A DNA stretch of 34,625 nucleotides from Dehalococcoidia bacterium (GTDB lineage Bacteria; Chloroflexota; Dehalococcoidia; Dehalococcoidales; CSSed11-197). How positions within the stretch are numbered: the first letter of the stretch is position 1; every line of letters starts with the position of its first letter. Below, piece by piece: positions 8,171 to 34,360 of the stretch. The notes under the pieces are model-generated. The model had not been told where the DNA came from and ran no database searches. It saw nothing but the letters and a program-made list of their open reading frames with translations. The stretch lies in NCBI GenBank assembly GCA_003552785.1, contig PUOQ01000064.1, positions 1 through 34,625 on the forward strand, written 5' to 3'. Position numbers and translations under genes: made by a program.

Positions 8171-8539
8171 AATAATTCCCCTCAAATTTTGTAGAATAAT
8201 ACCATTTTTCCAGTAAAAAGTTCGCATTATCACCAATCTTAACGGCTGATAGTCAGTAACTCACTACCGCTTAAGGATTCAAGCCATTTATGCACCTGTT
8301 CCCGATGGCCTGCATTGTAAAATACTACGGGTTGCATGGCCTGGCAAAAACTGTTTGAAATCTGTCTTTTAAGACCTGCTGGTTAATCTCAGGATCCCTA
8401 TATGTAAAGGCGCAGTGGTTGAAATTATAACTATACTTTAGCAATAGTTGCTAGCAGCCAATGTTTTTTGGTAGACTTCGAAAAATTTTAAGACCTGCAT
8501 TTTTTGATGTACTTTACTCCGGACAAGCAATAAGCGTAA

Positions 8540-11569: not shown

Positions 11570-12223
11570 ATGCAGGCAAAAAAAATGCTAAACATCCATG
11601 AAGCCAGTAATTTTTTAGGCGTTAGTGAAGCCACCTTGAGGTTATGGACTGATGAAAGCCAGGTCAAGGCTTTCATAACACCGGGAGGTCACAGGCGTTA
11701 CGACTTGGATGAACTCAAGCGCTTTTATGCATCCAGGCAAAAGGTTTTAAGTATCAAAGATATGGCCGCGAAACTGGAATTAACGTCTGCAACTTACAGA
11801 CAGGTTGCACATGAGCATGTAAGACCCGAATGGTTTAAACGTTTATCTCATGAAGACCAGCAGGAGTTGCTTGGAGTCACCCAGAGCTTATTTAACCTTA
11901 CAATAAATTTTATTAAAAGCCCCGCCCAGCGTAAACAAATATCCCAGGCGGCACAGTTAAAAGGTGAAGAGTTCGGCACACTTTTAGCAAAGCTGGAACT
12001 GTCTCTTACCGAATCTGTGGAAGCTTTTCTTTCCAACCGGGGCCATACCATAGATTTTATGGCTGATCTAATCAAAAAGAATACTGCACAGGATAAACGT
12101 GTTCTGGAATCATTGCCTTCTTTAAACCATATGTTGGATGAAGTGCTTTTATCTTTGATTACTGCTCATCAAAAATACGTAAAACCGAAAAAAAATAAGA
12201 CCGAAAGGGTAAGCCAAAATTGA
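11570..12223 (+). CDS. MerR-like/excisionase-type HTH transcriptional regulator with helical C-terminal domain
   Basis: MLNIHEASNFLGVSEATLRLWTDESQVKAFITPGGHRRYDLDELKRF is a MerR-type HTH; first gene of the heme operon. Confidence 0.85.
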   Translation: MQAKKMLNIHEASNFLGVSEATLRLWTDESQVKAFITPGGHRRYDLDELKRFYASRQKVLSIKDMAAKLELTSATYRQVAHEHVRPEWFKRLSHEDQQELLGVTQSLFNLTINFIKSPAQRKQISQAAQLKGEEFGTLLAKLELSLTESVEAFLSNRGHTIDFMADLIKKNTAQDKRVLESLPSLNHMLDEVLLSLITAHQKYVKPKKNKTERVSQN

Positions 12224-13407
12224 TCTCAGTCTCCAGGTTACTGTGTAACACCGTCAGTCCGGGTGACCATCTACGATACAGGACAGGAGGTCATGTATCA
12301 TTTAGTCCTGATAATGCCATCCCAAAACCCGTTGTTGTTTGGAATTCAACGCGGGCGTGTAACCTCAAGTGCCTGCACTGTTATGCATCAGCTACTACAG
12401 AAGCCGCGCTTGATGAGCTCACCAATTCTGATGCCAGAGAGTTCATAACAGATATTGCCAGCTTTAATGCACCGGTAATCCTATTTTCCGGCGGTGAACC
12501 ACTGATGAGGCAGGACTTTTTTGAATTAGCCTCTTTTGCTGCAAATGCAGGATTGAGGGTGGCTCTTTCTACCAACGGCACGCTTATTGACGCTCAAACA
12601 GCGCAAAGCTTAAAGCAGATAGGCTTTACTGAAGTAGGTATCAGCCTGGATGGCATCGGGGATAATAACGATCGCTTTCGGGGCTCCAAAGGCGCTTTTA
12701 CTGCTGCCTTGAATGGAATACGCCACTCAATCGACCAGGGGCTTAGAGTATCACTCAGGATAACTATGACCCGGTTCAATTACAAAGAAGTACCGGCTAT
12801 ATTTAAACTGATTGAAGAAGAAAATATCAATCGAATATGCCTTTATCATTTGGCTTACAGCGGCCGGGGGGACAGGCTTATAAAAGCAGACCTTACTTCT
12901 GAAATGACGCGTGAAACTATGGAAACTATAATCTGGCACACTGTCGACCTTCATGACAGGGGAAAACCTAAAGAGGTTCTTACAGTGGGAAACCATGCAG
13001 ATGGAGTATATCTGTACCTTAAATTATTGAGGGAGAAACATCCACAGGCAGAAAAGGCGCTTGAACTCTTAAAAAGCAATGGCGGCAATAACTCGGGTGT
13101 ACGCATTAGCGCTGTTGATAATACGGGCAATGTGCACCCTGATCAGTTCTGGTGGCATTACTCTCTGGGTAATATAAAGCAAAAACCTTTCAGCCAGATA
13201 TGGAGTGATGAAAGTGAGCCGCTACTGAAAGCTCTTAGAAACCGCAAGCCCCTTTTAAAGGGCAGGTGTGGGGCGTGCAAATACATCGATATATGTAATG
13301 GAAATCTGAGGGTTAGATCTGAAGCTTATTATAATGACCTTTGGGGGCCGGACCCTGCCTGCTATCTTACTGACGACGAGATAGGAGCCAAAGTCGAGAT
13401 TGCATAA
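12220..13407 (+). CDS. ahbC: 12,18-didecarboxysiroheme deacetylase, radical SAM (AhbC / NirJ1-like)
   Basis: VVVWNSTRACNLKCLHCYA (CxxxCxxC), LFSGGEPLMR, C-terminal CGACKYIDICNG; location within an alternative heme operon. AhbC versus AhbD assigned by sequence features and gene order. Confidence 0.85.
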   Translation: MISVSRLLCNTVSPGDHLRYRTGGHVSFSPDNAIPKPVVVWNSTRACNLKCLHCYASATTEAALDELTNSDAREFITDIASFNAPVILFSGGEPLMRQDFFELASFAANAGLRVALSTNGTLIDAQTAQSLKQIGFTEVGISLDGIGDNNDRFRGSKGAFTAALNGIRHSIDQGLRVSLRITMTRFNYKEVPAIFKLIEEENINRICLYHLAYSGRGDRLIKADLTSEMTRETMETIIWHTVDLHDRGKPKEVLTVGNHADGVYLYLKLLREKHPQAEKALELLKSNGGNNSGVRISAVDNTGNVHPDQFWWHYSLGNIKQKPFSQIWSDESEPLLKALRNRKPLLKGRCGACKYIDICNGNLRVRSEAYYNDLWGPDPACYLTDDEIGAKVEIA

Positions 13408-14488
13408 CTTATCAAGTAGCAACCTGATCAAGCCGGAATTGCGGATGGTAGCCTGGGAGCTTACCCGGGCATGCAACTTGCGTTGCGCCCACTGCAGGGC
13501 CTCTTCTGACAAAGAAGTAGATTCCGATGTATTGCCACTAAAAAGTTGCATGGATATAGTAAATCAAATCATCGAAGTATCCAAGCCGGTTGTTATACTT
13601 ACCGGGGGCGAACCGCTGTTAAGTGACAATATGTACGACATTGCCCGTTACAGTACGGGTAAAGGTTTGCGTGTTGTACTTGGAACCAACGGAACCCTGA
13701 TCACTCCAAAAGTAGCCGCAGATCTAAAAAAAACAGGTGTCAGCGCAGTCGGGATAAGCATTGATTATCCTGATGCTGAAAGTCAGGATGCATTCCGGGG
13801 AGTCAAAGGAGCCTTTGAGAGAGCAGTAAGCGGCATAGGGCATTCATTGGCTGCCGGCATATCTGTTCAGGTTAATACAACGGTTACACGCCTTAATTTC
13901 GAACATCTTGAAGAACTGTTAAGGCTCGCACTTGATGTCGGGGCCAGTGCCTTTCACCCTTTTTTACTGGTGCCTACCGGCAGAGGCGAAGATCTAAAAA
14001 GTGTCGAACTTTCTGCTGAGGAATATGAAAGGGTTCTTAACTGGGTTTATGACAAGCAAGTAGAACACAGTGACCGTATATTCATCAAGCCAACAGATGC
14101 ACCGCATTACATGCGCATTGTAGCGCAGAGGAAGCAACAAGGTCAGGAAGCAATAGCAAAATCTGTCCATGCGCGAAGCATGAGCAGAGGGTGCCTGGCC
14201 GGAGTTAGTTTCTGCTTTATTTCACATACCGGAATAGTCCAGGGTTGTGGTTACCTTACATTTCCGGCCGGAGATCTTAAAAAGCAGGTTTTTAAAGAAA
14301 TCTGGCAACAGTCGCCTCTTTTTAATGATCTCAGGGACATATCCAAACTCAAAGGCAAATGTGGAAGCTGTGAATACAAACGGGTGTGCGGTGGTTGCCG
14401 CGCGCGTGCCTATGAAGCTACTGGAGATTACCTGGAAGCCGAACCCTATTGTTTTTATTGGCCTTCAGTTTGCCAGGCTGCATTTTAA
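13400..14488 (+). CDS. ahbD: Heme synthase, radical SAM, Fe-coproporphyrin III to heme (AhbD / NirJ2-like)
   Basis: LRMVAWELTRACNLRCAHCRA (CxxxCxxC), LTGGEPLLS, C-terminal CGSCEYKRVCGGCRARAY. Start uncertain (TTG 13400 or ATG 13445). Confidence 0.85.
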   Translation: MHNLSSSNLIKPELRMVAWELTRACNLRCAHCRASSDKEVDSDVLPLKSCMDIVNQIIEVSKPVVILTGGEPLLSDNMYDIARYSTGKGLRVVLGTNGTLITPKVAADLKKTGVSAVGISIDYPDAESQDAFRGVKGAFERAVSGIGHSLAAGISVQVNTTVTRLNFEHLEELLRLALDVGASAFHPFLLVPTGRGEDLKSVELSAEEYERVLNWVYDKQVEHSDRIFIKPTDAPHYMRIVAQRKQQGQEAIAKSVHARSMSRGCLAGVSFCFISHTGIVQGCGYLTFPAGDLKKQVFKEIWQQSPLFNDLRDISKLKGKCGSCEYKRVCGGCRARAYEATGDYLEAEPYCFYWPSVCQAAF

Positions 14489-14501
14489 TTGAGAAGAGAA
14501 T

Positions 14502-15467
14502 ATGCTTGATTCTATTAACAAAAATTTAATAAGCATACTGCAATCCAGTTTCCCCCTGGTCAAGCAACCATATTACGAGATTGGTAAAAAACTGAACATC
14601 AGCACCGAGGAAGTAATATACAGGTTGACCAAATATAAAGAATCAGGGCTTGTGCGTGAAATCAGTGCTATAGCCAACCCTCACATGCTGGGTTATACGA
14701 CTACGCTGGTTGCAATCAAAATACCGTCGCAGGCCATAAAACGAGGTACGGAAATTATATGCAGTCATCCGTTTATCAGCCATGCTTACCTGCGCAATCA
14801 TGAATTTAACCTGTGGATAACTCTGGCGGCAAGAAAAGATCAAAACATTGCTGAGGAGATCGAAAAAATAAGATTGGGCTGCAATGCCACCACGGCTATC
14901 AGCCTGCCTTCAACCAGGGTTTTCAAGTTAAAGGCTGTTTTTGACGAAACAAACAAGCCATTGACGGAGCCAATTAAAAAGAACAAACCAGCAACCATTG
15001 AACTATCTCCGAAGCAAAAACGCGTTTTGAAAATTATACAATCAGACCTGCCACTTTCATCAACTCCATTTTATGAGCTTTCTCGGGAAATGGATATTCG
15101 AACCGACGAATTTTTGGATATGGTAAGGGAGCTAATCGGAGCAGGAGTGGTAAAGCGATATGGTGCCAGTGTAAATCACCGCCGGCTAGGATATGAGTTC
15201 AACGCAATGACCTGTTTTTGCGTGGACAATAAAACGGCTGAATCTCTGGGTAAATATTTTTCCCGACAAGAACAGGTTAGCCATTGTTATTTAAGAAAAC
15301 CGCATAAACTGTTCCCCCAAAACTTTTTTGCCATGGTTCACTGTGCAAACGAGGTTGAGCATTCGCTTTTTATGCAGAAAGTAGCCTCAGAAACCGGTCA
15401 CAGGGAATACCTTTCTCTGGTCTCTGAAGGTGAGATAAAAAAACAAAGGAACCGGTATTATTCATGA
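14502..15467 (+). CDS. ahbAB: Siroheme decarboxylase, fused AhbA-AhbB (Lrp/AsnC-like domains)
   Basis: Two homologous halves, each wHTH + AsnC-like ligand domain: LDSINKNLISILQSSFPLVKQPYYEIGKKL / LSPKQKRVLKIIQSDLPLSSTPFYELSREM; second half has the AhbB-type VVKRYGASVNHRRLGYEFNAM. Confidence 0.88.
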   Translation: MLDSINKNLISILQSSFPLVKQPYYEIGKKLNISTEEVIYRLTKYKESGLVREISAIANPHMLGYTTTLVAIKIPSQAIKRGTEIICSHPFISHAYLRNHEFNLWITLAARKDQNIAEEIEKIRLGCNATTAISLPSTRVFKLKAVFDETNKPLTEPIKKNKPATIELSPKQKRVLKIIQSDLPLSSTPFYELSREMDIRTDEFLDMVRELIGAGVVKRYGASVNHRRLGYEFNAMTCFCVDNKTAESLGKYFSRQEQVSHCYLRKPHKLFPQNFFAMVHCANEVEHSLFMQKVASETGHREYLSLVSEGEIKKQRNRYYS

Positions 15468-16129
15468 AACCACCAATCCGTAACAAGCCTTATCCCGTCG
15501 GTCTTCTTTTAAAAGGCAAAAACTGCCTTGTAGCAGGAGGCGGTGCTGTAGGAGCGAGAAAGGCTGCAACTCTGCTGGAACACGGGGCAGTAGTGACTGT
15601 TGTAAGCCCGGAAATTTGCCCGGATTTGCAATCACTATTGGATAAAGGAAAGATTGTCCACATATCGAAACTTTATTCAAGCAATGATATTGAAAATATG
15701 AGCCTTGTAATAGCTGCAACAAACAATAAAGAGATTAATACAACAATTTCCAATGATGCCAGGAAGAAAAGAGTCTTGGTAAATGTTGTTGATGACGAAG
15801 AGTTGTCCGATTTCATACTTCCGGCGTATTTTTGCAGAGGCAGTCTGGTGGTAACTGTAGCTACTTCGGGCCAGAGCCCGGCACTTGCCCGTAAACTAAA
15901 AGAAAAGCTGGAAGAGGAATTTGGGCCTGAGTATTCGACACTTGTCGATATCATTGGTCATGTAAGGCACCAGTTAAAGCTGGAAGGGAAAAATCCTCCC
16001 TACTCGGCATGGCAAGAAGCACTTGATATTGAATCATTGCTTGGTTTTATTAAACAAGGCCAGGCAAAAAGAGCTGAGGATTATATTACAACAAAAATAA
16101 CCCGGGCAACCGGATTGAACTGCGATTAG
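15464..16129 (+). CDS. Precorrin-2 dehydrogenase (CysG N-terminal/Met8/SirC-like)
   Basis: YPVGLLLKGKNCLVAGGGAVGARKAATLLEHGAVVTVVSPE, VATSGQSPALARKLKEKLEE. Confidence 0.93.
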   Translation: MKPPIRNKPYPVGLLLKGKNCLVAGGGAVGARKAATLLEHGAVVTVVSPEICPDLQSLLDKGKIVHISKLYSSNDIENMSLVIAATNNKEINTTISNDARKKRVLVNVVDDEELSDFILPAYFCRGSLVVTVATSGQSPALARKLKEKLEEEFGPEYSTLVDIIGHVRHQLKLEGKNPPYSAWQEALDIESLLGFIKQGQAKRAEDYITTKITRATGLNCD

Positions 16130-16138
16130 AACAAGCAA

Positions 16139-17398
16139 ATGAGTTTTTATCTTATAGGTTTGAACCATAATACAGCGCCCCTTGAGATACGTGAGAGCCT
16201 TTCGATAAGCCAGCGTAAACTTCCGGTTTACCTGGAAGAGTTGTGCTCACATGTGCAGTGCGGTGTCATTTTGTCAACATGCAACCGCACCGAGTTTTAT
16301 TTGTGGGACGATAATCCTGGTAATATAACTAAAGGTTTTGATAATTTTCTACATGCTCGCTCAGGTTTGAATATGGAATCTATCAGCAATTATCTTTATT
16401 GCAAACATGATGCTGACGTTGCTTTACATCTCTTCAGGGTCGCCTCCGGGCTCGAGTCAATGATACTGGGGGAGTATGAGGTTTTAGGTCAGGTAAAAAA
16501 TGCTTATTATGCTGCAGAATCAGCAGGGTCACTGGGCCTTGCTTTGAAAAAATTGTTTGAAGCGGCTATAAAGACAGGTCGGCGAGTCCGGGAGGAAACA
16601 GCAATAAGCCAAAATTCGCTTTCAGCAAGCTCTATGGCGGTGGATATCGCCCTTTCAAAAAGCGATGAACCGGCCGACCTGAAGGCTCTTGTTATCGGCA
16701 CCGGTGAAGCCGGAAAGCTGGTGGCGCAGGTAGCAAAAGCTAAAGGCGTCGGCAGCATTATAATGGCCAGCCGGTACTGCCAAGATGCTCGGGATATGGC
16801 GGATAAGCTGGATGTAGAGCTGGTTGATTTTGCTTGTGTCGAAAAGGTTTTGCAGGGGGTTGATATCATTATTACCTGTGCCCACGCGCCTCATTACCTT
16901 TTAAACGCAGAGCAGATTCGCCATGTATTATCGAATAACCCCGGTAAAAAGCTTGTTATTGTAGACATTGGCGTTCCCAGGAATGTTGATCCCGCCATAC
17001 ATGGATTTGAAGGGGTTTTGCTTTACAATATTGATGATATAGGCCGAGCATGCGACAGCAACTTAAGCAAGCGCCAGACAGAAACAAATGCGGCCCAGGC
17101 AATTATTGATCAAGAAATTGTTCGTTTCAGAGAGTTTTCTCACACATTGAATGTGCGTCCTATAATTCGGTCTCTGGCTCAGCGGGCGGAAAATATCAGG
17201 GCCAGTCATCTGGAAACAACACTCAGAAATTTAAACACAGAGCTTTCGCCAAAAGAGCGCTACCAGATAGATGCGATGACTAAAGCCATAGTTAACCGCA
17301 TCTTGCAGGACCCGATCGGTTATTTAAAACAAAATCCTCAAAACAGTCTGTATGTCAATGCAGCTGTTGAACTATTTAAACTTTCTGAAAGGAAATAG
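16139..17398 (+). CDS. hemA: Glutamyl-tRNA reductase
   Basis: LIGLNHNTAPLEIRE, LSTCNRTEFY, ESMILGEYEVLGQVKNAY. Confidence 0.97.
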   Translation: MSFYLIGLNHNTAPLEIRESLSISQRKLPVYLEELCSHVQCGVILSTCNRTEFYLWDDNPGNITKGFDNFLHARSGLNMESISNYLYCKHDADVALHLFRVASGLESMILGEYEVLGQVKNAYYAAESAGSLGLALKKLFEAAIKTGRRVREETAISQNSLSASSMAVDIALSKSDEPADLKALVIGTGEAGKLVAQVAKAKGVGSIIMASRYCQDARDMADKLDVELVDFACVEKVLQGVDIIITCAHAPHYLLNAEQIRHVLSNNPGKKLVIVDIGVPRNVDPAIHGFEGVLLYNIDDIGRACDSNLSKRQTETNAAQAIIDQEIVRFREFSHTLNVRPIIRSLAQRAENIRASHLETTLRNLNTELSPKERYQIDAMTKAIVNRILQDPIGYLKQNPQNSLYVNAAVELFKLSERK

Positions 17399-17400
17399 TT

Positions 17401-18309
17401 TTGAAAAAGAGATTGATAATAGGCTCAAGGGCAAGTAAACTCGCTCTAATTCAGGCACAAATGGTGGCAGACCGGCTAAAAGCTTTTGTGCCGGATATAG
17501 ATATCAAAATAAAGCAAATTTCAACCACCGGCGACAGGGACAAAGAAACAGCCCTGGACAAGATGGGCACGGTAGGGGTTTTCGTAAAGGAGCTCGAAAA
17601 AGCACTGGAGCTTCACCGGATTGACATCGCTGTACACAGCCTTAAAGACATGCCGGCAAAACAGCCTGAAGGCTTGTTTTTGTCAGCGGTATTGGAGCGT
17701 GAAGATCCCGGAGACGTGCTTGTTTCAAGTGCAGGCAACCTCGACCAGCTCCCGGCAGGAGCTAGAATCGGCACCGGCAGTTTGCGCCGCCAGGTACAGC
17801 TTAAAACTGCAAGGCCAGATCTACAGGTTATGCCTTTAAGGGGAAACATTGACACACGCTTGAAAAAATTGCATGACGGAAACTATCAGGCAATAATAAT
17901 GGCAGCAGCAGCTTTAAAGCGCCTGGGATTGGAGCACTGGATAACCCAGTATCTGGATGCCGATGTATTTGTTCCTTCTGGATGCCAGGGTATCATCGGC
18001 ACCGAAATACGTAAAGAAGACAACGAGTTAGATAAAATGCTTGGGAAAATAAATCATTTACCTACCTCGCATGAAGCAACAGCAGAGAGGGCATTTCTAA
18101 GGGTGCTTGGAGCCGGCTGCCATGCGCCGGTAGGGGTAAAAGCCAGTTGCCTGGATAATCAGATGACCATCAGAGCCATGGCTGCCAGCCTCAGCGGGGA
18201 TTCGGTAGTATTTGATTCTGTTAAAGGCATCGTAACGGATGCCAGTAAAATGGGAACAGAGCTGGCAGAATCATTTGTAGTAAAAGGAGCTCCGGATTTT
18301 AGTGGATAA
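17401..18309 (+). CDS. hemC: Hydroxymethylbilane synthase (porphobilinogen deaminase), TTG start
   Basis: IGSRASKLALIQAQMV, VHSLKDMP, GTGSLRRQ, LRGNIDTRL, RVLGAGCHAPVG. Confidence 0.97.
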   Translation: MKKRLIIGSRASKLALIQAQMVADRLKAFVPDIDIKIKQISTTGDRDKETALDKMGTVGVFVKELEKALELHRIDIAVHSLKDMPAKQPEGLFLSAVLEREDPGDVLVSSAGNLDQLPAGARIGTGSLRRQVQLKTARPDLQVMPLRGNIDTRLKKLHDGNYQAIIMAAAALKRLGLEHWITQYLDADVFVPSGCQGIIGTEIRKEDNELDKMLGKINHLPTSHEATAERAFLRVLGAGCHAPVGVKASCLDNQMTIRAMAASLSGDSVVFDSVKGIVTDASKMGTELAESFVVKGAPDFSG

Positions 18310-19855
18310 TAAACCAGAAAATAAAGCAGGCAAAGTTTACCTGGTCGGGGCCGGCCCAGGGGATCCGGGGCTAATGACAGTAAAAGCGCTGGAATTGCTG
18401 AAAAAGGCAGACTCCGTTGTTTATGACCGCCTGGTGGATATAAATATCGGTGACTATGTTGAATCAGGCACAGAGTTGATTTTTGCCGGAAAGGCGCCTG
18501 ACAGGCATACATTGAAGCAAACGGAAATCAATCAACTTTTAGGCAGTCTTGCCATGCAGGGTAAAACTGTCGTAAGGCTTAAAGGGGGAGACCCTTTCGT
18601 ATTGGGGCGAGGTGGTGAAGAAGCAGAGCACCTGAAATCTTTAGGGATTAAATTTGAAGTTGTGCCGGGGGTGACTTCTGCTGTAGCTGCTCCGGCCTAT
18701 GCCGGCATTCCCGTTACCCACAGAGGGCTGGCTTCATCTTTTGCTGTGATAACCGGGCATGAAGATCCGGATAAGGAAATTTCCAGTATTAATTGGGGAA
18801 AACTGGCAACTGGTGCAGATACTCTGGTATTTCTGATGGCCATGGCGCGCATGGGTCAAATTACAAAAAGACTAATGGAAAACGGTCTGGCAGGAGACAC
18901 GCCGGCAGCGGTAATAAAAGATGGAACTAGGCCATCACAAAAAGTTATTTGTGCAACCCTGGAAACCATCTCAGAAGCGGTAAGAAAGTTTGAAGTCGGC
19001 CCTCCGGCTGTTTTAATAGTTGGCCGGGTAGCCGGTCTGCGTAATTCTTTAGAGTGGTTTGACAACCGGCCATTATTTTCTAAAAAAATACTGGTAACAC
19101 GTTCCAGGCATCAGGCGAGCCGTCTGAGCAGGGTTCTTTTTGAAGCAGGGGCAATTCCGGTTGAGCAACCGGCCATTGAAATAGAACCTTTTAAAAATAC
19201 AGAACGTCTCGACAAAGCTATCAAGTCAATTCAAAAATATCAGTGGGTGGTTTTCACCAGCGTTAACGGGGTTTCAATATTTTTTAAACGCCTTTCGGAG
19301 TTGGGGTATGATTCCCGAAAACTGAACGACCTTCGTGTCGGTGCCATTGGTCCGGCAACGGCCAGCCTTTTGCTTGAACACGGTATTTCCCCGGACTATA
19401 TGCCACAGGAGTATACAGGCAGTGCTTTTATTAAGAATCTTGATAAAAACATGGTTAAAGGTCAGTTTTTTCTGTTGCCCCGAGCAAAAGCAGCTGATGA
19501 TGAAGTTCCCATGGGCATAGAATCACTGGGAGGTCAGGTTGATGACGTACCGATTTACGATACCGTTCCGAGTAGAAAAACATTGCAAAAAATTAAACTT
19601 ATGCTGGAACAAAAGCAAATCGATGTAGCTACATTTGCGAGTTCTTCAACTGTTACCAACCTCTTGGGAGCTCTGGGTAGCCAGGCACAGGATCTATTGG
19701 AAGGGGTGGACATAGCTTGCATCGGGCCAAAAACGACCGCAACAGCTCAAAAAGCCGGGCTCAGTGTAAAAATCATAGCGCGTGAAAGCACGATACCCGG
19801 GCTGGTTCGGGCCATGGAAGAATACTATGACAGGAGGAGTTCTTATGGCAGCTGA
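18302..19855 (+). CDS. cobA-hemD: Fused uroporphyrinogen-III C-methyltransferase / uroporphyrinogen-III synthase
   Basis: N-terminal SUMT motifs VYLVGAGPGDPGLMTVKALELL, RLKGGDPFVLGRGGEEAE; C-terminal HemD domain (ILVTRSRHQASRLSRVLFEAGA, WVVFTSVNGV). Confidence 0.95.
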   Translation: MDNKPENKAGKVYLVGAGPGDPGLMTVKALELLKKADSVVYDRLVDINIGDYVESGTELIFAGKAPDRHTLKQTEINQLLGSLAMQGKTVVRLKGGDPFVLGRGGEEAEHLKSLGIKFEVVPGVTSAVAAPAYAGIPVTHRGLASSFAVITGHEDPDKEISSINWGKLATGADTLVFLMAMARMGQITKRLMENGLAGDTPAAVIKDGTRPSQKVICATLETISEAVRKFEVGPPAVLIVGRVAGLRNSLEWFDNRPLFSKKILVTRSRHQASRLSRVLFEAGAIPVEQPAIEIEPFKNTERLDKAIKSIQKYQWVVFTSVNGVSIFFKRLSELGYDSRKLNDLRVGAIGPATASLLLEHGISPDYMPQEYTGSAFIKNLDKNMVKGQFFLLPRAKAADDEVPMGIESLGGQVDDVPIYDTVPSRKTLQKIKLMLEQKQIDVATFASSSTVTNLLGALGSQAQDLLEGVDIACIGPKTTATAQKAGLSVKIIARESTIPGLVRAMEEYYDRRSSYGS

Positions 19856-20828
19856 TTTTCCCCGGTTGAGACTTCGTCGCCTGCGTACAGGTCAGGCCAT
19901 GCGCAACCTGACCAGGGAAACCAGTTTATGCGTTGAAAATCTGGTTTGCCCCATATTTTTAGTGGAGGGTGCAGGGCGCCTGGAAGAAATAGAATCGATG
20001 CCAGGAATATACCGTTTTTCCATAGATATGCTGGAGCCGGAAATAAAGCAGGTTTCCAAACTTGGGATACAAGCGTTATTGCTTTTTGGTGTTCCCCATG
20101 CTACAGATGAAACCGGTAGCGGGGCTTACACAGAAAATAATTTGATACAGCAAGGTATAAAAGAAATTAAAAACATCAATTCAGACCTGGTTGTAATAAC
20201 CGATGTTTGCCTGTGTGAGTACACTACTCACGGCCACTGCGGAGTTATAGTAAATGGCAACATAGACAACGATGCCACCCTGCCATTGCTGGGTAAAATG
20301 GCACTCTCTCACGCTGAAGCGGGTGCTGATATGGTTGCTCCTTCAGACATGATGGACGGCAGGATAGGATACATAAGAAAGACGCTTGACGCCCATGGCT
20401 TTACCAACCTGCCAATAATGGCATACTCGGCCAAATTTGCCTCATCGTTTTATGGCCCCTTCCGGGAAGCCTGTATGTCGTGCCCTTCCTTCGGAGATCG
20501 TGCAAGTTATCAGATGCAGTATACAAATTCAAGGGAGGCACTGAGGGAAATAGCCCAAGACGTCAAAGAAGGGGCTGATATAATAATGGTTAAGCCGGCA
20601 CTTTCATTTCTTGATGTAATTAACCGGGCTCGTTCATCTTTTAATCTGCCATTGGCTGCATATAATGTGAGTGGCGAGTATTCAATGTTAAAACTGGGCT
20701 CAAAAAATGGTTTGTTTGAAGAAAAGAAGGTTATCCTGGAAGTGCTAACGTCTATAAAAAGGGCGGGAGCAGACATAATAATTACTTATCACGCGAAAGA
20801 AGCTGCCGGCTGGCTTAAACAAAAATGA
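19845..20828 (+). CDS. hemB: Delta-aminolevulinic acid dehydratase (porphobilinogen synthase)
   Basis: DVCLCEYTTHGHCGVI (metal-binding Cys), GADMVAPSDMMDGRIG, IMVKPALSFLDVI; ATG 19845 with RBS AGGAGG. Confidence 0.96.
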   Translation: MAADFPRLRLRRLRTGQAMRNLTRETSLCVENLVCPIFLVEGAGRLEEIESMPGIYRFSIDMLEPEIKQVSKLGIQALLLFGVPHATDETGSGAYTENNLIQQGIKEIKNINSDLVVITDVCLCEYTTHGHCGVIVNGNIDNDATLPLLGKMALSHAEAGADMVAPSDMMDGRIGYIRKTLDAHGFTNLPIMAYSAKFASSFYGPFREACMSCPSFGDRASYQMQYTNSREALREIAQDVKEGADIIMVKPALSFLDVINRARSSFNLPLAAYNVSGEYSMLKLGSKNGLFEEKKVILEVLTSIKRAGADIIITYHAKEAAGWLKQK

Positions 20829-20838
20829 AAGGAGGAAT

Positions 20839-22125
20839 ATGTCCAGATACAAAGTTTCCGATGAATTATTTGAAAAAGCATTACAGGCCATTCCTGGAGG
20901 TGTAAACAGCCCGGTGAGGGCCTTTAAGAATGTCGGCAAAAACCCTTTGTTCATAAAAAATGGGAGCGGTTCCCGTATAACCGATGTCGATGGCAATGAA
21001 TACATAGATTATGTTTGTTCATGGGGGCCCCTGATACTAGGTCATTCTCATCCGGAAGTCATCACTGAAATCAGGCGTGAGATAGAAAATGGCATTAGCT
21101 TTGGTGCGCCTTGCCTGAAGGAGCTTGAGCTGTCAGAGTTTATCGTAAAAGCAGTGCCTTCCATTGAAAACATTCGATTGGTAAATTCGGGTACAGAGGC
21201 GACCATGTCAGCATTGCGCCTGGCAAGGGCTTTTACAGGGAGAGATAAAATTGTCAAATTCTCGGGGTGCTATCATGGTCACGCTGATGGTTTGCTTGTA
21301 AAAGCAGGCTCAGGAGTGGCCACCGCCGGGCTGCCCGATTCACCAGGAGTTCCAAAAAGCTATACTAAACACACATTGATCGCTCCTTACAATAATCTCA
21401 AAGCAACAACCGAGCTTTTTGAACATTACCCCGGGAGCATTGCAGCTATCATTGTAGAGCCGGTTGCGGCAAATATGGGTGTGGTTAAGCCCGAGCCGGG
21501 TTTCCTGGAGGGGTTGAGGCAGCTGGCTACAGCCTACGGGGCCGTTCTAATCTTCGATGAAGTTATCACCGGGTTCCGTTTGAGCTTTGGCGGGGCTCAG
21601 CAAGCAACAGGGGTTATACCTGATTTAACTTGTCTGGGTAAAATAATAGGGGGCGGCCTGTCCGTTGGCGCTTATGGAGGTAAAAAAGAGATTATGCAAA
21701 TGGTAGCGCCTCAGGGAGCTGTCTATCAAGCCGGTACACTGTCAGGCAACCCGGTAGCAGCGACTGCAGGGCTGGCAACACTTAAAGTGCTGGCTCAGAA
21801 AGGAATTTACGAAGAGCTTCAGCAAAAAACAGATCGCCTGGAGGAAGGAATCAATAACCTTTTAAGACAAACTTCTGGTGAATTTTGCCTTAATCGCATT
21901 GGTTCTTTACTGACACTTTTCTTTACCTTGAAAAAAGTCAATGATTTTGAGAGTGCTTCTTCATCAAATATGCACTCCTTTATGGGTTTCCATCAGAGCC
22001 TTTTAGGGCAGGGCATTTACTGGCCTCCTTCTCAATTCGAGGCAGCGTTCATTTCTCTTGCGTTAACCAATGAAGATATTGATAAGACACTAAAAGCTAT
22101 GGAGAAAGCTTTAGCTTTCGCCTGA
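20839..22125 (+). CDS. hemL: Glutamate-1-semialdehyde 2,1-aminomutase
   Basis: PGGVNSPVRAFKNVG, VNSGTEATMSALRLAR, LIFDEVITGFR, CLGKIIGGGLSVGAYGGK. Confidence 0.96.
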   Translation: MSRYKVSDELFEKALQAIPGGVNSPVRAFKNVGKNPLFIKNGSGSRITDVDGNEYIDYVCSWGPLILGHSHPEVITEIRREIENGISFGAPCLKELELSEFIVKAVPSIENIRLVNSGTEATMSALRLARAFTGRDKIVKFSGCYHGHADGLLVKAGSGVATAGLPDSPGVPKSYTKHTLIAPYNNLKATTELFEHYPGSIAAIIVEPVAANMGVVKPEPGFLEGLRQLATAYGAVLIFDEVITGFRLSFGGAQQATGVIPDLTCLGKIIGGGLSVGAYGGKKEIMQMVAPQGAVYQAGTLSGNPVAATAGLATLKVLAQKGIYEELQQKTDRLEEGINNLLRQTSGEFCLNRIGSLLTLFFTLKKVNDFESASSSNMHSFMGFHQSLLGQGIYWPPSQFEAAFISLALTNEDIDKTLKAMEKALAFA

Positions 22126-25196: not shown

Positions 25197-26207
25197 ATGA
25201 CTGTGGCGGTGACCGGTGCATCCGGACATATTGGAGCCAGCCTGGTTAGAGATCTGCTGTCGCAGGGCAGGCGGGTTCGTGTACTGGTGCATACAGACCG
25301 GAGGGCTCTGGAAGGCCTTGATGTTGAAGTTGTATCAGGTGACATATGTGACCTGGACTATCTTAAAGCCAGCTTCTCTAATATCGAAACAGTCTACCAT
25401 CTGGCAGCAGTAGTATCCATCTACGGCAACAAATGGCCTTTATTTGAAAACGTGAATGTTGAGGGCACCAGGAATGTGGTGCAGGCATGTCTGGACTGCG
25501 GTGTAAAGAGACTTGTCCATTTCAGCTCAATTCATGCTATTTCCCAGCAACCTCTTGACATGCCTGTCGATGAAACAAGCCCTCTGGTGCCATGCAGGCG
25601 TTACATGCCTTATGACAGCTCCAAGGCCGAATCTGAAAAAGAAATATACAAGGGCATTCAGCAGGGGTTGGACAGCGTCATTCTCAGCCCGACTGGAGTA
25701 CTGGGCCCGTATGACTTTAAGCCTTCCCTTACCGGAGAAGTGCTCCTGAAGATGGCACGGGGCACCCTTCCCGGCCTGGTGAATGGTGGCTTCGACTGGG
25801 TTGATGTCCGTGACATAACCCGGGCGGCAGTTCGGGCAGAACAGACAGCACCTGCCGGCGTCAGATACATCCTTTCAGGGCACTGGGCATCCGTTAAAGA
25901 GCTGGCAATGCTGGTTGAAGAAATAACCGGAACTCCGGCTCCCGGTCGGGTTTACCCCCTGTGGCTGGCAGCCCTTGCAGCCCCTGCTATCACTTTCCTT
26001 GACCGCATTTCAGGCAGGAGGCCTCTTTATACCAGTGCTTCACTCAAGGCACTTCACTCCAACTGCCATATCAGCCATGACAAGGCCAGCCGGGAATTGG
26101 GCTTTAGCCCCCGTCCTTTGAAGGAAACCGTAGCAGACTCCCTGTTGTGGTTTAAACAAAACGGCTGGTTGAATAGCACCCAAAAAAAGATAAAGGCTGA
26201 ATCATGA
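25197..26207 (+). CDS. NAD-dependent epimerase/dehydratase, 3beta-hydroxysteroid dehydrogenase-like extended SDR
   Basis: VTGASGHIGASLVRDLLSQG Rossmann motif; YDSSKAESE (YxxxK); extended SDR fold similar to 3beta-HSD/dihydroflavonol-4-reductase/HpnA groups. Confidence 0.88.
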   Translation: MTVAVTGASGHIGASLVRDLLSQGRRVRVLVHTDRRALEGLDVEVVSGDICDLDYLKASFSNIETVYHLAAVVSIYGNKWPLFENVNVEGTRNVVQACLDCGVKRLVHFSSIHAISQQPLDMPVDETSPLVPCRRYMPYDSSKAESEKEIYKGIQQGLDSVILSPTGVLGPYDFKPSLTGEVLLKMARGTLPGLVNGGFDWVDVRDITRAAVRAEQTAPAGVRYILSGHWASVKELAMLVEEITGTPAPGRVYPLWLAALAAPAITFLDRISGRRPLYTSASLKALHSNCHISHDKASRELGFSPRPLKETVADSLLWFKQNGWLNSTQKKIKAES

Positions 26208-26965
26208 CAGAACAGGTTATTTTTAATTACCTTTTAGTCGCCTGGTTTCTACTGGCAGGCACGGTATTTATACTATTGTTCTTCATTTCTGCTCCATATG
26301 GCCGCCACCTGCGCAAAGGATGGGGCTTGAATATAAACCCAAAAACTGGCTGGGTGGTGATGGAAGCGCCTGCAGTGCTGGTTTTTGCCGCCTGCTTTAT
26401 ATTTGGCAGCGCGCCGTATTCGTTTGCTGTGCTGGCTTTCTTTTTCATGTGGCAGGCCCACTATGTACACAGGGCTTTTGTGTATCCTTTAGAAATTGGC
26501 AGATCAAGCAGGAGAATGCCTCTTCTCATCGTGGGCTTTGGTTTTACTTTCAGTGTTATAAATGCCTATCTAAACGGGCGGTACCTGTTTACTTTTTCAG
26601 GTGGTTATGCTTCTGATTGGCTTGGTGACCCGCGGTTTGTGGTTGGAGTTATTCTCTTTGGCCTGGGTTATATAATAAACAGACGTTCTGACGGTATTTT
26701 ATTAAACATGAGAAAGAACGGCATTTCAGGTTATTCCATCCCGGAAGGGGGGCTTTATCGCTGGGTTTCCTGCCCAAACTACCTGGGCGAGGTGATAATA
26801 TGGACGGGGTGGGCGGTTGCCACCTGGTCTTTACCCGGGCTGGCGTTTGCTTTATGGACGATAGCCAACCTGGTTCCCAGGGCAAGGGCGCACCATGCGT
26901 GGTACAGGAAAAACATGCCTGATTATCCACCGGAGCGCAAGGCGCTTCTTCCCCGGTTATGGTAG
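26204..26965 (+). CDS. 3-oxo-5-alpha-steroid 4-dehydrogenase (steroid 5-alpha-reductase, SRD5A) family membrane protein
   Basis: C-terminal signature GGLYRWVSCPNYLGEVIIWTGWAVATWSLPGLAFALWTIANLVPRARAHHAWYRKNMPDYPPERKALLPRLW; ATGA overlap with SDR. Confidence 0.9.
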   Translation: MTEQVIFNYLLVAWFLLAGTVFILLFFISAPYGRHLRKGWGLNINPKTGWVVMEAPAVLVFAACFIFGSAPYSFAVLAFFFMWQAHYVHRAFVYPLEIGRSSRRMPLLIVGFGFTFSVINAYLNGRYLFTFSGGYASDWLGDPRFVVGVILFGLGYIINRRSDGILLNMRKNGISGYSIPEGGLYRWVSCPNYLGEVIIWTGWAVATWSLPGLAFALWTIANLVPRARAHHAWYRKNMPDYPPERKALLPRLW

Positions 26966-27035
26966 CCTGAAAAAAGCAAGCTTTGGCAACTCTAAAGCGG
27001 AACACATTATTGGAAAATCAGGGGGGGCTGGATTA

Positions 27036-28016
27036 ATGAAGCTCTGGAAGCCGGAAGTTTATCAGGGGCGGCGAAAAATGCGGGCGTATTTTGAAGGCTG
27101 GTATTATAAAATGGTGGATGGCAGGGGCCGGAATGTCGTTGCCATCATACCGGGAGTTTCATTTGAGAAAGACGGTTCAGCGCACGCTTTCATACAGGTT
27201 GCCGGTTCCGGCACCGGGCCGGCATTATATTTCAAGTACCCTTTAGAAGCCTTCCGTTATTCAGAAAAGATTCTCGATGTAACAATTGGAGGCTCTACCT
27301 TTAAAAGAGAAGGGCTGGATATAAATGCTTGCAGTGATATAAACCAGATTACCGGAAGCCTGAAATTCTCCGGTTTGAGCCCCTGGCCTGTTAAACCAGG
27401 CAGCCCCGGGGCTATGGGCTGGTATGCTTTTGTACCTTTTATGCAGTGTTATCACGGTGTAGTGAGCATGGACCACGAGATTTATGGCAGTATCAGCATA
27501 AACGGCAAAAGTATAAATATGGACGGTGGCCGCGGGTATATAGAAAAAGACTGGGGCAAATCTTTTCCCAGGTACCATATATGGATGCAAACCAATCACT
27601 TCGATGTCGGCGGTGCGTCACTTATGTGCTCAATAGCCAATATACCCTGGATGAAAAGGCACTTTGACGGGTTTATAGCCGGATTTTTACTAAACGGCAG
27701 CTTGCACCGTTTTGCAACCTATACCGGGGCAAGGCTGGCCGAGCTGGAGATAAAGGCGGATTCTGTTTCTATTGCCATAGAAGCAAGAAATCACATACTG
27801 GAAATACACACCCCGAGACAAGGAGGCATAGAGCTGGCTGCGCCTGCATCTGGAGAGATGATTGGCAAGCTTCGAGAAAGCCTCAAAGCCGTTATTGATG
27901 TAAAACTTTTCGCAAATAATTCAAGTGGCAAGGTGCTGTTGTTTGAAGGAACTGGCAGTAACGCTGGCCTTGAGATTGCGGGTAATATAGAACAAATGAA
28001 AAATATCACGCGTTAG
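27036..28016 (+). CDS. Tocopherol cyclase-like family protein
   Basis: RRKMRAYFEGWYYKMVDGRGRNVVAIIPGVSF...GGRGYIEKDWGKSFPRYHIWMQTNHF resembles the tocopherol-cyclase-like family; ATG 27036 with preceding GGGGGGG. Confidence 0.75.
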   Translation: MKLWKPEVYQGRRKMRAYFEGWYYKMVDGRGRNVVAIIPGVSFEKDGSAHAFIQVAGSGTGPALYFKYPLEAFRYSEKILDVTIGGSTFKREGLDINACSDINQITGSLKFSGLSPWPVKPGSPGAMGWYAFVPFMQCYHGVVSMDHEIYGSISINGKSINMDGGRGYIEKDWGKSFPRYHIWMQTNHFDVGGASLMCSIANIPWMKRHFDGFIAGFLLNGSLHRFATYTGARLAELEIKADSVSIAIEARNHILEIHTPRQGGIELAAPASGEMIGKLRESLKAVIDVKLFANNSSGKVLLFEGTGSNAGLEIAGNIEQMKNITR

Positions 28017-30071: not shown

Positions 30072-31010
30072 ATGAGTTTAAAAAAACCCTTAAAAAGCCC
30101 GGTATTTTTTGGTGTGCTTCTTTTTGTTGCCGCCCACATTGTCATGCTTTTCCTGGTATCCAGCATGAACCCCTTTCTTGAGGAGCAAAACATTTATGTG
30201 CCTCCCCAGCCACCCGAAGTTATTACCTTGTGGCCGGGAGAGGTGACCCTCCCATCCGGGGAGGTTTACCAGGTTTCGCCTTACTCATCGCTCGGGCCGA
30301 TAATCATCTATTTCGTGGTCGTGGTGGCTGTTTTAAGCCTGGTTCTTTCCGTAATTCCACTCGGGGCTTTGAAATTTATCCTTAGATTGGTATTTGCACT
30401 GCTTTTTGCCTGGGGAGGGTTTATAGGCACGGTGTTTTACCTGCCCTATCCACTGGCAATTATAATTGGCTTGGGGCTGGGGGCAATCTGGGTGTTTATG
30501 CCGATGGTATGGTTGCATAACCTGGTTTTGATACTGGCTCTTACCAGTCTGGCGGCGGTTTTTGGGAGGTTTATTACTCCCTGGACGGCCATGTTTGTTG
30601 TTCTGGGGCTTGCGCTCTATGACTTTATTGCGGTGCGCTACGGGTTTATGCTGTGGATGGCAGACAAATTAGCCAGGTCGGATGCCCTGCCGGCAGTTAT
30701 AATTCCCAAAGATATCCATGGCTGGGGGTTGAACCTGAAGCGCAATGGCGTTACGGATCTTCTTGAACCCAAGCCCGGTGACAGGCAGTACTCCATATTG
30801 GGTGGTGGCGATATTGCCTTCCCCTGCCTGCTTACCGCTTCGGTGTACTTTGCCCAGGGTTTAACACCGGCACTGGTGATTGCAGCTTTCGGCTTGCTGG
30901 GGCTTATGGGAGCTTACGCCATCCAGGCATTTGTTGTAAAAGGCAGGGCAGTGCCTGCCATACCGCCGATTGCCGCCTTTTGTATAGTTGGCCTGCTAGT
31001 GGCTTTATAA
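30072..31010 (+). CDS. Presenilin/signal-peptide-peptidase-like (A22-type, archaeal DUF1119-like) intramembrane aspartyl protease candidate
   Basis: About nine hydrophobic segments; ordered motifs ALYDFIAV (YD, Asp184), LGGGDIAFP (GxGD, Asp247), AVPAIPP (PAL-equivalent, residues about 293-299). Confidence 0.75.
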   Translation: MSLKKPLKSPVFFGVLLFVAAHIVMLFLVSSMNPFLEEQNIYVPPQPPEVITLWPGEVTLPSGEVYQVSPYSSLGPIIIYFVVVVAVLSLVLSVIPLGALKFILRLVFALLFAWGGFIGTVFYLPYPLAIIIGLGLGAIWVFMPMVWLHNLVLILALTSLAAVFGRFITPWTAMFVVLGLALYDFIAVRYGFMLWMADKLARSDALPAVIIPKDIHGWGLNLKRNGVTDLLEPKPGDRQYSILGGGDIAFPCLLTASVYFAQGLTPALVIAAFGLLGLMGAYAIQAFVVKGRAVPAIPPIAAFCIVGLLVAL

Positions 31011-31110
31011 TTAAAAGAAAACATTATAAAGAGAGCCGGATTTGTCAGGCTATTTAAGCAAACGGGGTATGGTAAACTGCACCTGTTTAAAAAATGGGCC
31101 ATTAAAATTT

Positions 31111-31347
31111 ATGATGGGAGAGAAATTGGATAAAGAAGTAGTAATCCGTACCAGGGGCCTTACCAGGCATTTTACTACGTTGTGCCGTAACCTTCTGGAA
31201 GTGGATGATTTGAGTATTGAAGTATCAAAGCTGGAAAATTTGCCAATGTGCCCCTACCTTTCCGGGCGGACCAATCTGGAGGTGCCTGCCTGATTCGACA
31301 TTGCAGATCGAACGGGTAAACCGCAGCAGGATATTGATGGATTAATT
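31111..31347 (+). pseudogene. Remnant of an ABC transporter ATPase (Walker A to Q-loop missing)
   Basis: EVVIRTRGLTRHFTTLCRNLLEVDDLSIEV (ABC N-terminal strands) joined to PYLSGRTNLEV (post-Q-loop YLSGRxNLE), no Walker A; next frame continues as FDIADRTGKPQQDIDGLI. Confidence 0.6.
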
Positions 31348-32745
31348 ATGCAAAGGCAGGAAAATATCTACCGGCAACTTATAAAAGAAACTCGAGTCTG
31401 GGCCAGGGGCAGGCAGAAGGGTCCCGGGCGCGCCTCAGGCCTCCGGCATGAAGCGATCTTAAATAACCACGCCTATTACATGGATAATGTTCCGTGCTAC
31501 CGGAAACTGGCGCTTGAGGAAGGCTTAAGCAAAGAAGTTGATTTAAGTACCATTAAATCTTCCCTGATGCTGGAAGCCGGGGTTTTTAAAAGCTATGACC
31601 AGAAATGGCTGGATAACGGGGATTATACCCGGATGACGCAGTGGCTTTCGGATATCTACCACCGGCGTATCCATGTCGATATGGCCGGGGTTGCTGCCAT
31701 AGATGAATGGATAGACCGGCTTGATAAAAACGGGATTCACGTGGTTTACAGTTCAGGCACTTCCGGTAACTTCTCTTTTGTGCCCCGACAGAAGAAAAAC
31801 CGGGCTCTTTCCCGGACGGTTAACATTGCCGGGCTGTCCCCTCAACTTGCCAGCAGAATTGGAAGTGGCTTTGCTGGGGCTTTGCTTCGTATGTCTGCAG
31901 CGTTTGTGCCACCTGAAGGTGTTATGAAGTTTGCTACCAGAAAAAGCCTTGGCGGTTATGACGGATGCTTTCTTACTTTTCGTGGCGGCAGAATGGGAAA
32001 CCAGTCACTGATAGAAGAGCTTGCTCCCATGTTTAGCCAGCATTACTTTCTTTACACTATGGATATAACCGGCTCGGCGCTTCGCAGCTTGCGGCGTGGC
32101 GCAAAAAACGAAGTGGAACGGCAGCTGGTTGAAGATTTGAAAAGGGAAGTTTTAGAGCGGAAGGAAGAGAATTACCGCTGCATTATTGAAAATATGCAGG
32201 CTTCGACTGACGCAGGCAAGAAAGTTTTTGTTTTCGGGGCACCCTATCAGTTCAAGGAGTTATGCGAGATCCTGGAAAGCATGAACCGGTGCCTTGATTT
32301 GAAAGAGGGCAGTCTGGGGCTTTTTGGTGGTGGGTGGAAATCCTTTGCTGGGGAAGCTATAGAGCGTGAAGTGCTGGTTGAAAATATCAGCCTTAAACTG
32401 GGCCTGTCGCCGGAAATGATTCTGGAAGGCTATTCTATGACTGAAATTAACGTGCTAACGCTAAGATGCAGTAGGGGGCGCTTTCACATTCCGCCTTCTA
32501 TAGAACCGGTGCTGCTGGATGAAGAGTTGAACGTAAAGGATGGCCTGGAAGGGGAAGGCACCTTTGGCTTTCTTGACGCTCTGGCGGTGGATTACCCCGG
32601 TTTCATAATAACCGGAGATCATGTGAAGATGGTGGAAGGCGAATGCGGCTGCTCTCTCTCCGGTCCTGCAGTAATACAAGTTGGGCGCAAGGCCGGTGTC
32701 GAGTTAAAGGGGTGCGGTGGTATTATGGGTTCTATGGGGGTATAA
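31348..32745 (+). CDS. LuxE-like acyl-protein synthetase
   Basis: VVYSSGTSGNFSFVPRQ (adenylate-forming P-loop), FGGGWKSFAGEAIEREVLVENI, EGYSMTEINVLTLRC; followed directly by a LuxC-like gene. Confidence 0.85.
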   Translation: MQRQENIYRQLIKETRVWARGRQKGPGRASGLRHEAILNNHAYYMDNVPCYRKLALEEGLSKEVDLSTIKSSLMLEAGVFKSYDQKWLDNGDYTRMTQWLSDIYHRRIHVDMAGVAAIDEWIDRLDKNGIHVVYSSGTSGNFSFVPRQKKNRALSRTVNIAGLSPQLASRIGSGFAGALLRMSAAFVPPEGVMKFATRKSLGGYDGCFLTFRGGRMGNQSLIEELAPMFSQHYFLYTMDITGSALRSLRRGAKNEVERQLVEDLKREVLERKEENYRCIIENMQASTDAGKKVFVFGAPYQFKELCEILESMNRCLDLKEGSLGLFGGGWKSFAGEAIEREVLVENISLKLGLSPEMILEGYSMTEINVLTLRCSRGRFHIPPSIEPVLLDEELNVKDGLEGEGTFGFLDALAVDYPGFIITGDHVKMVEGECGCSLSGPAVIQVGRKAGVELKGCGGIMGSMGV

Positions 32746-32758
32746 AAAGGAGGGGCAC

Positions 32759-34360
32759 ATGGAAGCGCTTTGCAACCGGCATGGTTTATTCAGGTTAAAA
32801 GAAGAGCTGGTTCGAGTTCCATTTGTAGTAAAAGGCAGGCTGGTATTGCCGCCCGAGGTTAGCCCGGAAAGTGTCAGGGAGGCATTCAGTCGAGCTGGTG
32901 AATATGCCACACTGGTAAAAATGGAGAACGTACAGGTTTTAAGGGAGCCTGTTATCCAGCGCTCCAGCATGAAGTATACCGGGGAATATATTTATCAGGT
33001 TATGCCTGCCCCCGGTGCTTATGAACTCATCGAGCCTGAAACAGCTACTCTGGCAGACGGCCTTTATCGGCTGGGTGTTGACGACATTCTTGATTATATC
33101 GAGTCAATCGTATCTACTTTGCTGGAAAACTATTCGCTGGCGATGAGGGTTCTTGAACTGTTGCGCCGGACCTCAGAGTTTCCGGAAGCGTTTCTTGATG
33201 ACTGGATAAACAGTACAGCCTCAAGCTTAAACCGTGAAACCGCCCGGCAGATGATTGACAGTGAGCTATCTTTTATGGGAAAACCGGGCAGCCAATATCT
33301 TGAAGGCTGGGTTGAAGTTCCCGGCGGTGCCAAATCCGGGTGGTTAAGGCAAAAAGCGGTTGAAATATTCGGGCGAAATGAAAATATGCCTGAGGTAAAA
33401 CGGCCGTATGTGCGGGCTATGCCTACACGTCAATTGCACATAACTGCCGGGAACGCGCCTGAAGTGCCGCTGGTTTCAGCCCTAAGGGCAGTGCTCACCA
33501 AGTCTGCCGCAGTAATAAAGATGCCATATGGCGCCACTTTATCAGGAGCTTTTTTTGCGATGGCGGCGGTTGCAGCCGCCCCCGATCATCCCATAACCCG
33601 GCACCTTTCTATGGTTTACTGGCAGGGTGGCGATGAAGCAATAGAGGCCGAATTACTGATGTCAGGTGCATTTGACCGGATGGTGGTGTGGGGTGGGCAT
33701 GAGGCCATAGCTTCTATGCAATCCAGAACCCATTTTGCCCGGGCTGTGTATCTTAATCCGCGCTACGGTGTGAGCTTTATCGGCAATGAAGCCTTTTCTG
33801 CAAGCCTGGAAGAAGTGGCGATGAGGGCTTCACTGGATGTAATGATACACAATCAGAAAGCATGCAGTTCTTCACTGGTGCATTATGTTGAGGGCTCAGC
33901 CGGGCAGGCTGTCAGGTATGCAGGAATGCTTCAGGAAGCGCTTTACAGGTGGGATGAGGAAATACCCAATTTTTTAAATCCTTTAAAAAAGGCTCAGTTG
34001 AAGCGTATGCGGCGGGGCCGCTATATCGGGGCTGAATGGCTGGTAAATACGCGGGAGGGAGAATTTTCATCCGGTGTGGTTGTTATTCAGGACGAGTTCG
34101 ACATATTGGACCATCCCATGTGCCGGCTGGTAGTGGTTAAACCCGTAGACAGGCTTGAAGGAGCCTTGAAGAAGTTAAACCAGTTTGTTTCTACTGCCGG
34201 AGTTTACCCGGAAGAGCGCCGCTTGGAACTCAGAGACAGGATGCTCTCAAGGGGGGTTTCGAGTGTATTAAGCCTGGGGCATTGTGAAAACCTGTATTCC
34301 GGTATGCCTCATGACGGCATGCTGGTTCTTGGCCACCTGGTGGATTGGAAGAACAGTTAA
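32759..34360 (+). CDS. LuxC-like acyl-CoA reductase
   Basis: HITAGNAPEVPLVSALRAVLTKSAAVIKMP, MVYWQGGDEAIEAELL, VMIHNQKACSSSLVHYVEG (catalytic Cys region of LuxC); RBS AAAAGGAGGGG before ATG 32759. Confidence 0.88.
   Translation: MEALCNRHGLFRLKEELVRVPFVVKGRLVLPPEVSPESVREAFSRAGEYATLVKMENVQVLREPVIQRSSMKYTGEYIYQVMPAPGAYELIEPETATLADGLYRLGVDDILDYIESIVSTLLENYSLAMRVLELLRRTSEFPEAFLDDWINSTASSLNRETARQMIDSELSFMGKPGSQYLEGWVEVPGGAKSGWLRQKAVEIFGRNENMPEVKRPYVRAMPTRQLHITAGNAPEVPLVSALRAVLTKSAAVIKMPYGATLSGAFFAMAAVAAAPDHPITRHLSMVYWQGGDEAIEAELLMSGAFDRMVVWGGHEAIASMQSRTHFARAVYLNPRYGVSFIGNEAFSASLEEVAMRASLDVMIHNQKACSSSLVHYVEGSAGQAVRYAGMLQEALYRWDEEIPNFLNPLKKAQLKRMRRGRYIGAEWLVNTREGEFSSGVVVIQDEFDILDHPMCRLVVVKPVDRLEGALKKLNQFVSTAGVYPEERRLELRDRMLSRGVSSVLSLGHCENLYSGMPHDGMLVLGHLVDWKNS

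Follow-up and report, generated by a model that had tools for sequence, protein, structure and literature searches.

The window analysed here is a 34,625-nucleotide stretch from a Dehalococcoidia bacterium whose genome measures 1.42 Mb and is 92 % complete. At 30072–31010 (+) it carries a gene for a predicted presenilin/SPP-type (A22, PSH-like) intramembrane aspartyl protease of 312 amino acids plus stop. The reading frame opens with ATG, and the encoded N-terminus (MSLKKPLK) resembles that of the relatives at loci L002 and L022 (MSFKRTIK), so that the start matches those of related genes. Three motifs lie where the original prediction had placed them. The YD motif (LYDF) contains Asp184 (codon 30621–30623), the GxGD motif reads GGGD (G244-G245-G246-D247 in LGGGDIAFP; 30801–30812, with the Asp247 codon at 30810–30812), and a PAL-type motif reads PAIPP (P295–P299 in VPAIPP; 30954–30968). 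A catalytic role is predicted for both aspartates. In comparisons with three relatives, pN was 0.14–0.23 and pS, with synonymous sites near saturation, was 0.66–0.77, so that the frame is seen to be under purifying selection.

Directly 3′ of the protease gene, and separate from it, blastp revealed the decayed remnant of an ABC-transporter ATPase gene (31042–31293, +). It aligned with the intact ABC ATPase of locus L050 (E=9e-9) across a 53-residue gap; relative to this intact gene, which adjoins the L050 orthologue of the protease, ~53 amino acids including Walker A are missing. Two overlapping tandem genes follow (31348–32745 and 32717–34360, +), coding for a LuxE-like acyl-protein synthetase and a LuxC-like acyl-CoA reductase. 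We noticed no luciferase gene within the window, and a LuxE/LuxC-like pair also sits after the protease gene in locus L023. Upstream of the protease gene, a haem biosynthesis cluster (11570–22125, +) contains hemA-, hemC-, cobA/hemD-, hemB- and hemL-like genes together with genes for a NirDL-like siroheme decarboxylase and two radical-SAM/SPASM proteins, and appears to use the siroheme route. Three consecutive genes at 25197–28016 (+) encode an NAD-dependent epimerase/3-beta-HSD-like protein, a steroid 5-alpha-reductase-family protein (PF02544) and a tocopherol-cyclase-family protein (PF14249), possibly a lipid-modifying cassette. Two similar small polytopic membrane proteins without a Pfam match are encoded near each other at 6096–6635 (+) and 7634–8236 (−); they look like diverged duplicates.

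We compared the window protein with family profiles. The NCBIfam model of the archaeal presenilin-family protease PSH (NF041679) matched residues 76–311 (E=4.2e-11, 42.9 bits) and also matched 17 of 17 relatives; the score of the window protein did not reach the equivalog cut-off of 125 bits. Judged by its sequence, the protein is thus homologous to PSH but not an equivalog under NCBI's rule. In a six-frame search of the genome, the Pfam model PF06550 (SPP) gave the window gene a marginal 25.2 bits (gathering cut-off 23.9), and hmmscan of the window ORF alone did not report PF06550. Among the 17 relatives, PF06550 matched 15 (E up to 0.1) and PF04258 matched six. With the single window sequence as query, phmmer matched no chain in the PDB. 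With a family profile built from the 17 relatives (A1), the match to archaeal PSH (4HYC) had E=3.9e-12 and a weak match to human presenilin-1 had E=0.0017; the YD, GxGD and PAL segments were in register. In hhalign, the Dehalococcoidia family matched PSH-like proteins of Diapherotrites archaea at E=7.6e-25, and these in turn matched PSH at E=1.9e-29. The profile search that had been proposed as a check therefore returned A22 matches, from NF041679 as well as from PF06550.

The same profile served as input for AlphaFold2, which gave a model of good confidence (pLDDT 86.7, pTM 0.86). In agreement with the roughly nine hydrophobic segments counted originally, the model has nine membrane helices (residues 10–38, 74–94, 97–121, 126–142, 146–167, 170–189, 245–262, 264–287 and 297–311). 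The first is encoded at 30099–30185 and the sixth at 30579–30638. Asp184 lies in the sixth helix and Asp247 at the N-terminal end of the seventh, as expected for A22 enzymes, and the PAIPP motif marks the start of the ninth. Between the sixth and seventh helices lies a loop of residues 190–244 (30639–30803) with seven K/R and six D/E and two short predicted strands (208–212 and 240–244). The second strand, ahead of GGGD, probably occupies the place at which presenilin forms a hybrid sheet when substrate is bound. Counted over alternating loops, 12 K/R fall inside and none outside. This distribution is consistent with an N-terminus and a TM6–TM7 loop on the inside, in agreement with presenilin topology.

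Foldseek searches of the PDB with this model returned presenilin (in gamma-secretase), SPPL2a or PSH as all of the top 23 matches (probability 0.95–1.00). Among the matches listed, the probability fell to ≤0.14 after rank 23; the 16 matches with E<0.001 had TM scores of 0.53–0.71. Going by this fold match, the two aspartates would be near enough to each other for catalysis. These results bear on the reading that the protein is a type IV prepilin peptidase-like (A24) enzyme, or some other polytopic protein with presenilin motifs by chance. A24 enzymes have a GxGD motif too (PMC2947513), but YD and GxGD on adjacent helices followed by PAL are the pattern of A22 and not of A24. Neither Pfam nor NCBIfam gave a match to A24 or any other family outside A22 for the window protein and its 17 relatives, and Foldseek was significant only for A22. 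We regard this reading as refuted by sequence, conservation and fold, its probability being negligible.

Motif conservation was read from an alignment of 70 sequences, 69 of which cover each motif site. Y183, D184, G244–G246 and D247 were invariant wherever covered, including both aspartates in all 69 covering sequences. Position 297, the middle of PAL, was L in 65 of 69 sequences and I in the remaining four; PAIPP thus differs from PALPP by a conservative substitution. Two features that had been singled out as unusual are therefore ordinary within the family: GGGD is its fixed form and is also present in Diapherotrites archaea, and PAIPP departs mildly from a PALPP that Diapherotrites archaea share. 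The same alignment speaks to the suggestion that the protein is catalytically silent and has been retained as a scaffold, a leak channel or a chaperone in the membrane. Some eukaryotic family members, SPPL2c for example, are reported to have roles other than proteolysis (PMC11513070). The essential invariance of both aspartates, the three glycines of GGGD and the PALPP core across divergent sequences is instead what an enzyme would display, and we consider a silent member highly improbable.

Taken together, the homology, fold, motifs, conservation and charge distribution indicate that the window protein is a member of A22 and, by extension, an active GxGD protease; we put the probability of this reading at roughly 90 %. 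The presenilin/SPP-family assignment of the original prediction is thereby borne out by the PSH profile match, the PSH/presenilin/SPPL2a-like fold and the invariant pair of aspartates. The archaeal YD/GxGD protease MCMJR1 cleaves transmembrane helices, and mutation of either aspartate abolishes its activity (PMC2947513). Being homologous, the window protein should act in the same way. The transmembrane helix of a substrate would enter the helix bundle from the lipid side and unwind near the inner membrane face, where the unwound stretch would pair with the strands predicted ahead of GGGD. Hydrolysis would then be by water that Asp184 (TM6) and Asp247 (TM7) activate between them, and the PA(L/I)PP segment of TM9 would give the active site its shape. 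Like PSH and SPP, the enzyme would need no partners of the nicastrin, APH-1 or PEN-2 type.

We scanned genomes for further members of the family and found 70 loci, nearly all of them titled Dehalococcoidia, Dehalococcoidales or Chloroflexi. Three carried other titles: Nealsonbacteria (L088), a Diapherotrites archaeon (L090) and 'Bacteroidales' (L072). The last of these is a Dehalococcoidia-type copy (397–1257) on a 1.8-kb contig and probably reflects mis-binning. Identity to the window protease was 78 % in L022 and 66 % in L023. The protease family was found in 18 of 61 related genomes (including that of the window) and in 25 of 296 sampled genomes of the class. PF06550 proteins occurred in 12 of 301 sampled genomes of the phylum, in 12 of 294 Patescibacteria genomes and in 17 of 19 genomes of the Diapherotrites phylum. 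The family had been thought rare in bacteria; it is in fact common in Dehalococcoidia and also occurs in Patescibacteria and in another Chloroflexota lineage. A plasmid search with the window protein as query gave no match, and one with MCMJR1 gave a single copy on a haloarchaeal megaplasmid. On a Natrinema megaplasmid (L138), a PSH gene annotated as hypothetical (1029–2723) sits after srp19 and gar1, neighbours that are a possible clue tying archaeal PSH to protein secretion.

In a tree of 60 sequences, the Dehalococcoidia proteins formed one clade (support 100/100) apart from archaea. Patescibacteria joined this clade (96/98), and Diapherotrites archaea adjoined. With archaea as the source of the nearest characterised relatives, archaeal contamination of the assembly might be suspected, but orthologues are present in many independent Dehalococcoidia assemblies, single-contig genomes included, the clade is separate from archaea, and ordinary bacterial genes lie on the same contig. 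Contamination is thus extremely unlikely. The PF06550 domain of a second Chloroflexota genus grouped elsewhere, with the Natrinema and Methanoculleus PSH proteins (100/99). A single clade for all Chloroflexota sequences was rejected (p-AU 0.02), as was one for all bacterial sequences (p-AU 0.005), the groupings having been chosen after the tree was inspected. This suggests that bacteria acquired presenilin-family genes at least twice, a reading that is only suggestive because of the post hoc groups, the long fusion branch with its deviating composition, and the thin archaeal sampling.

In this second genus, the presenilin domain is part of a larger protein. At locus L092 (592–2166, +), an NfeD integral-membrane domain, an NfeD C-terminal domain and a presenilin/SPP domain are joined in one protein, and the same fusion occurs in L093, L131–L134, L136 and L137. 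The NfeD_membrane, NfeD C-terminal and SPP domains were found together in seven of seven fusion proteins of 519–537 amino acids. All nine matching genomes of the genus carry the NfeD–presenilin gene, in one of them as a shorter frame of 280 amino acids. A structure model of the fusion was of low confidence (pLDDT 40.5) and was set aside. The fusion protein is like the window protease in having YD within a PF06550 domain and in belonging to the phylum Chloroflexota, and its GxGD motif reads GFGD. It differs in being fused to NfeD, in having AGLP in place of PAL, a trait in common with the Natrinema and Methanoculleus PSH proteins, and in grouping with haloarchaeal and methanogen PSH. The genome of the window has two separate NfeD genes, both unlinked to the protease gene. 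We found no description of an NfeD–presenilin fusion in the literature searched.

What do these proteases do? NfeD proteins act together with SPFH/stomatin scaffolds, so the fusion points to membrane quality control; in our analysis it is the sole functional hint. Across ~70 loci, no conserved neighbour gene named a substrate or partner. The neighbours differ between sub-clades, and local clusters recur only inside them; hemW comes after the protease gene in seven loci. We considered whether the protease replaces SppA and rejected this, as SppA was absent from three of 18 genomes with the protease and from nine of 43 without it (Fisher p=1.0); signal-peptide clearance in place of SppA is accordingly left without positive support. 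The protease is also no substitute for S2P (M50), which is nearly universal (59 of 61 related genomes). Among the possible jobs we tentatively favour a general one, in which the protein would rid the cytoplasmic membrane of leftover signal peptides and of single-span helices that have come loose.

A more specific role can also be envisaged. Eukaryotic A22 enzymes perform regulated intramembrane proteolysis, and an active bacterial member might likewise be dedicated to a single regulator with one membrane span, or to a small number of them, such as an anti-sigma factor, a sensor or a transporter regulator, cutting it probably after a prior extramembrane cut. The patchy presence of the gene (18 of 61 genomes) suits an optional role of this kind better than essential housekeeping. 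On the other hand, the ~70 loci have no co-conserved regulator or sheddase gene adjacent, and S2P, the usual bacterial enzyme for the task, accompanies nearly all of the genomes. We regard regulated proteolysis as the chief competing reading, though less likely than not. A further, more speculative reading covers both bacterial forms, and we put it forward with reserve. Presenilin-family genes may have entered bacteria independently on two or more occasions, giving a stand-alone form with PALPP, common to Dehalococcoidia and Patescibacteria, and a form fused to NfeD, whose relatives are euryarchaeal PSH proteins. Both might be membrane-protein quality-control proteases, and the fused one would be in physical connection with the NfeD/SPFH (stomatin) scaffold.

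Presenilin is a membrane-embedded protease linked to Alzheimer's disease. Homology of such bacterial proteins to the presenilin family is already recognised by Pfam and NCBIfam, and the bacterial branch is real and poorly described. A review of regulated proteolysis in bacteria exemplifies the aspartyl class by eukaryotic presenilin alone (PMC7593790). In the literature searched, we found no presenilin-family protease described from Dehalococcoidia/Chloroflexi or Patescibacteria, and Raut et al. 2021 (Proteins 89:232) may list bacterial members. The points of interest are the spread of the family in bacteria and the NfeD fusion, which offers a clue to the job of prokaryotic presenilins. MCMJR1, when described, had no known natural substrate and no obvious PAL motif (PMC2947513). 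With its genuine PAL motif, a compact enzyme from bacteria could offer a simpler system in which to study presenilin and SPP.

The nearest characterised relative of the window protease is archaeal PSH/MCMJR1 of Methanoculleus marisnigri (PDB 4HYC, 4HYG and 4Y6K; NF041679). The two are alike in size, in their nine helices, in YD on TM6 and GxGD on TM7, and in the expected independence from partner subunits, without which PSH works. Their identity in structural alignment is only 17–19 %. Where the window protein has GGGD and PAIPP, MCMJR1 has GMGD and AGLPPL; the window protein also has one residue fewer directly behind the YD block, and its outside TM1–TM2 loop is longer, with a predicted hairpin. 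The PSH-like proteins of Diapherotrites and Patescibacteria (PF06550) resemble the Dehalococcoidia family in their LGGGD or LGTGD and PALPP motifs but have a TKHM block after YD, the place of which is typically taken by RFG[FY]M in the Dehalococcoidia clade. Human presenilin-1 and SPPL2a resemble the window protease in YD, GxGD and fold (best matches TM ~0.57–0.64), and presenilin-1 has a PAL motif, as does the Dehalococcoidia family. Compared with these human proteins, the window protease is without the large TM6–TM7 loop and without extra domains and, unlike human presenilin, would not be expected to have gamma-secretase partners.
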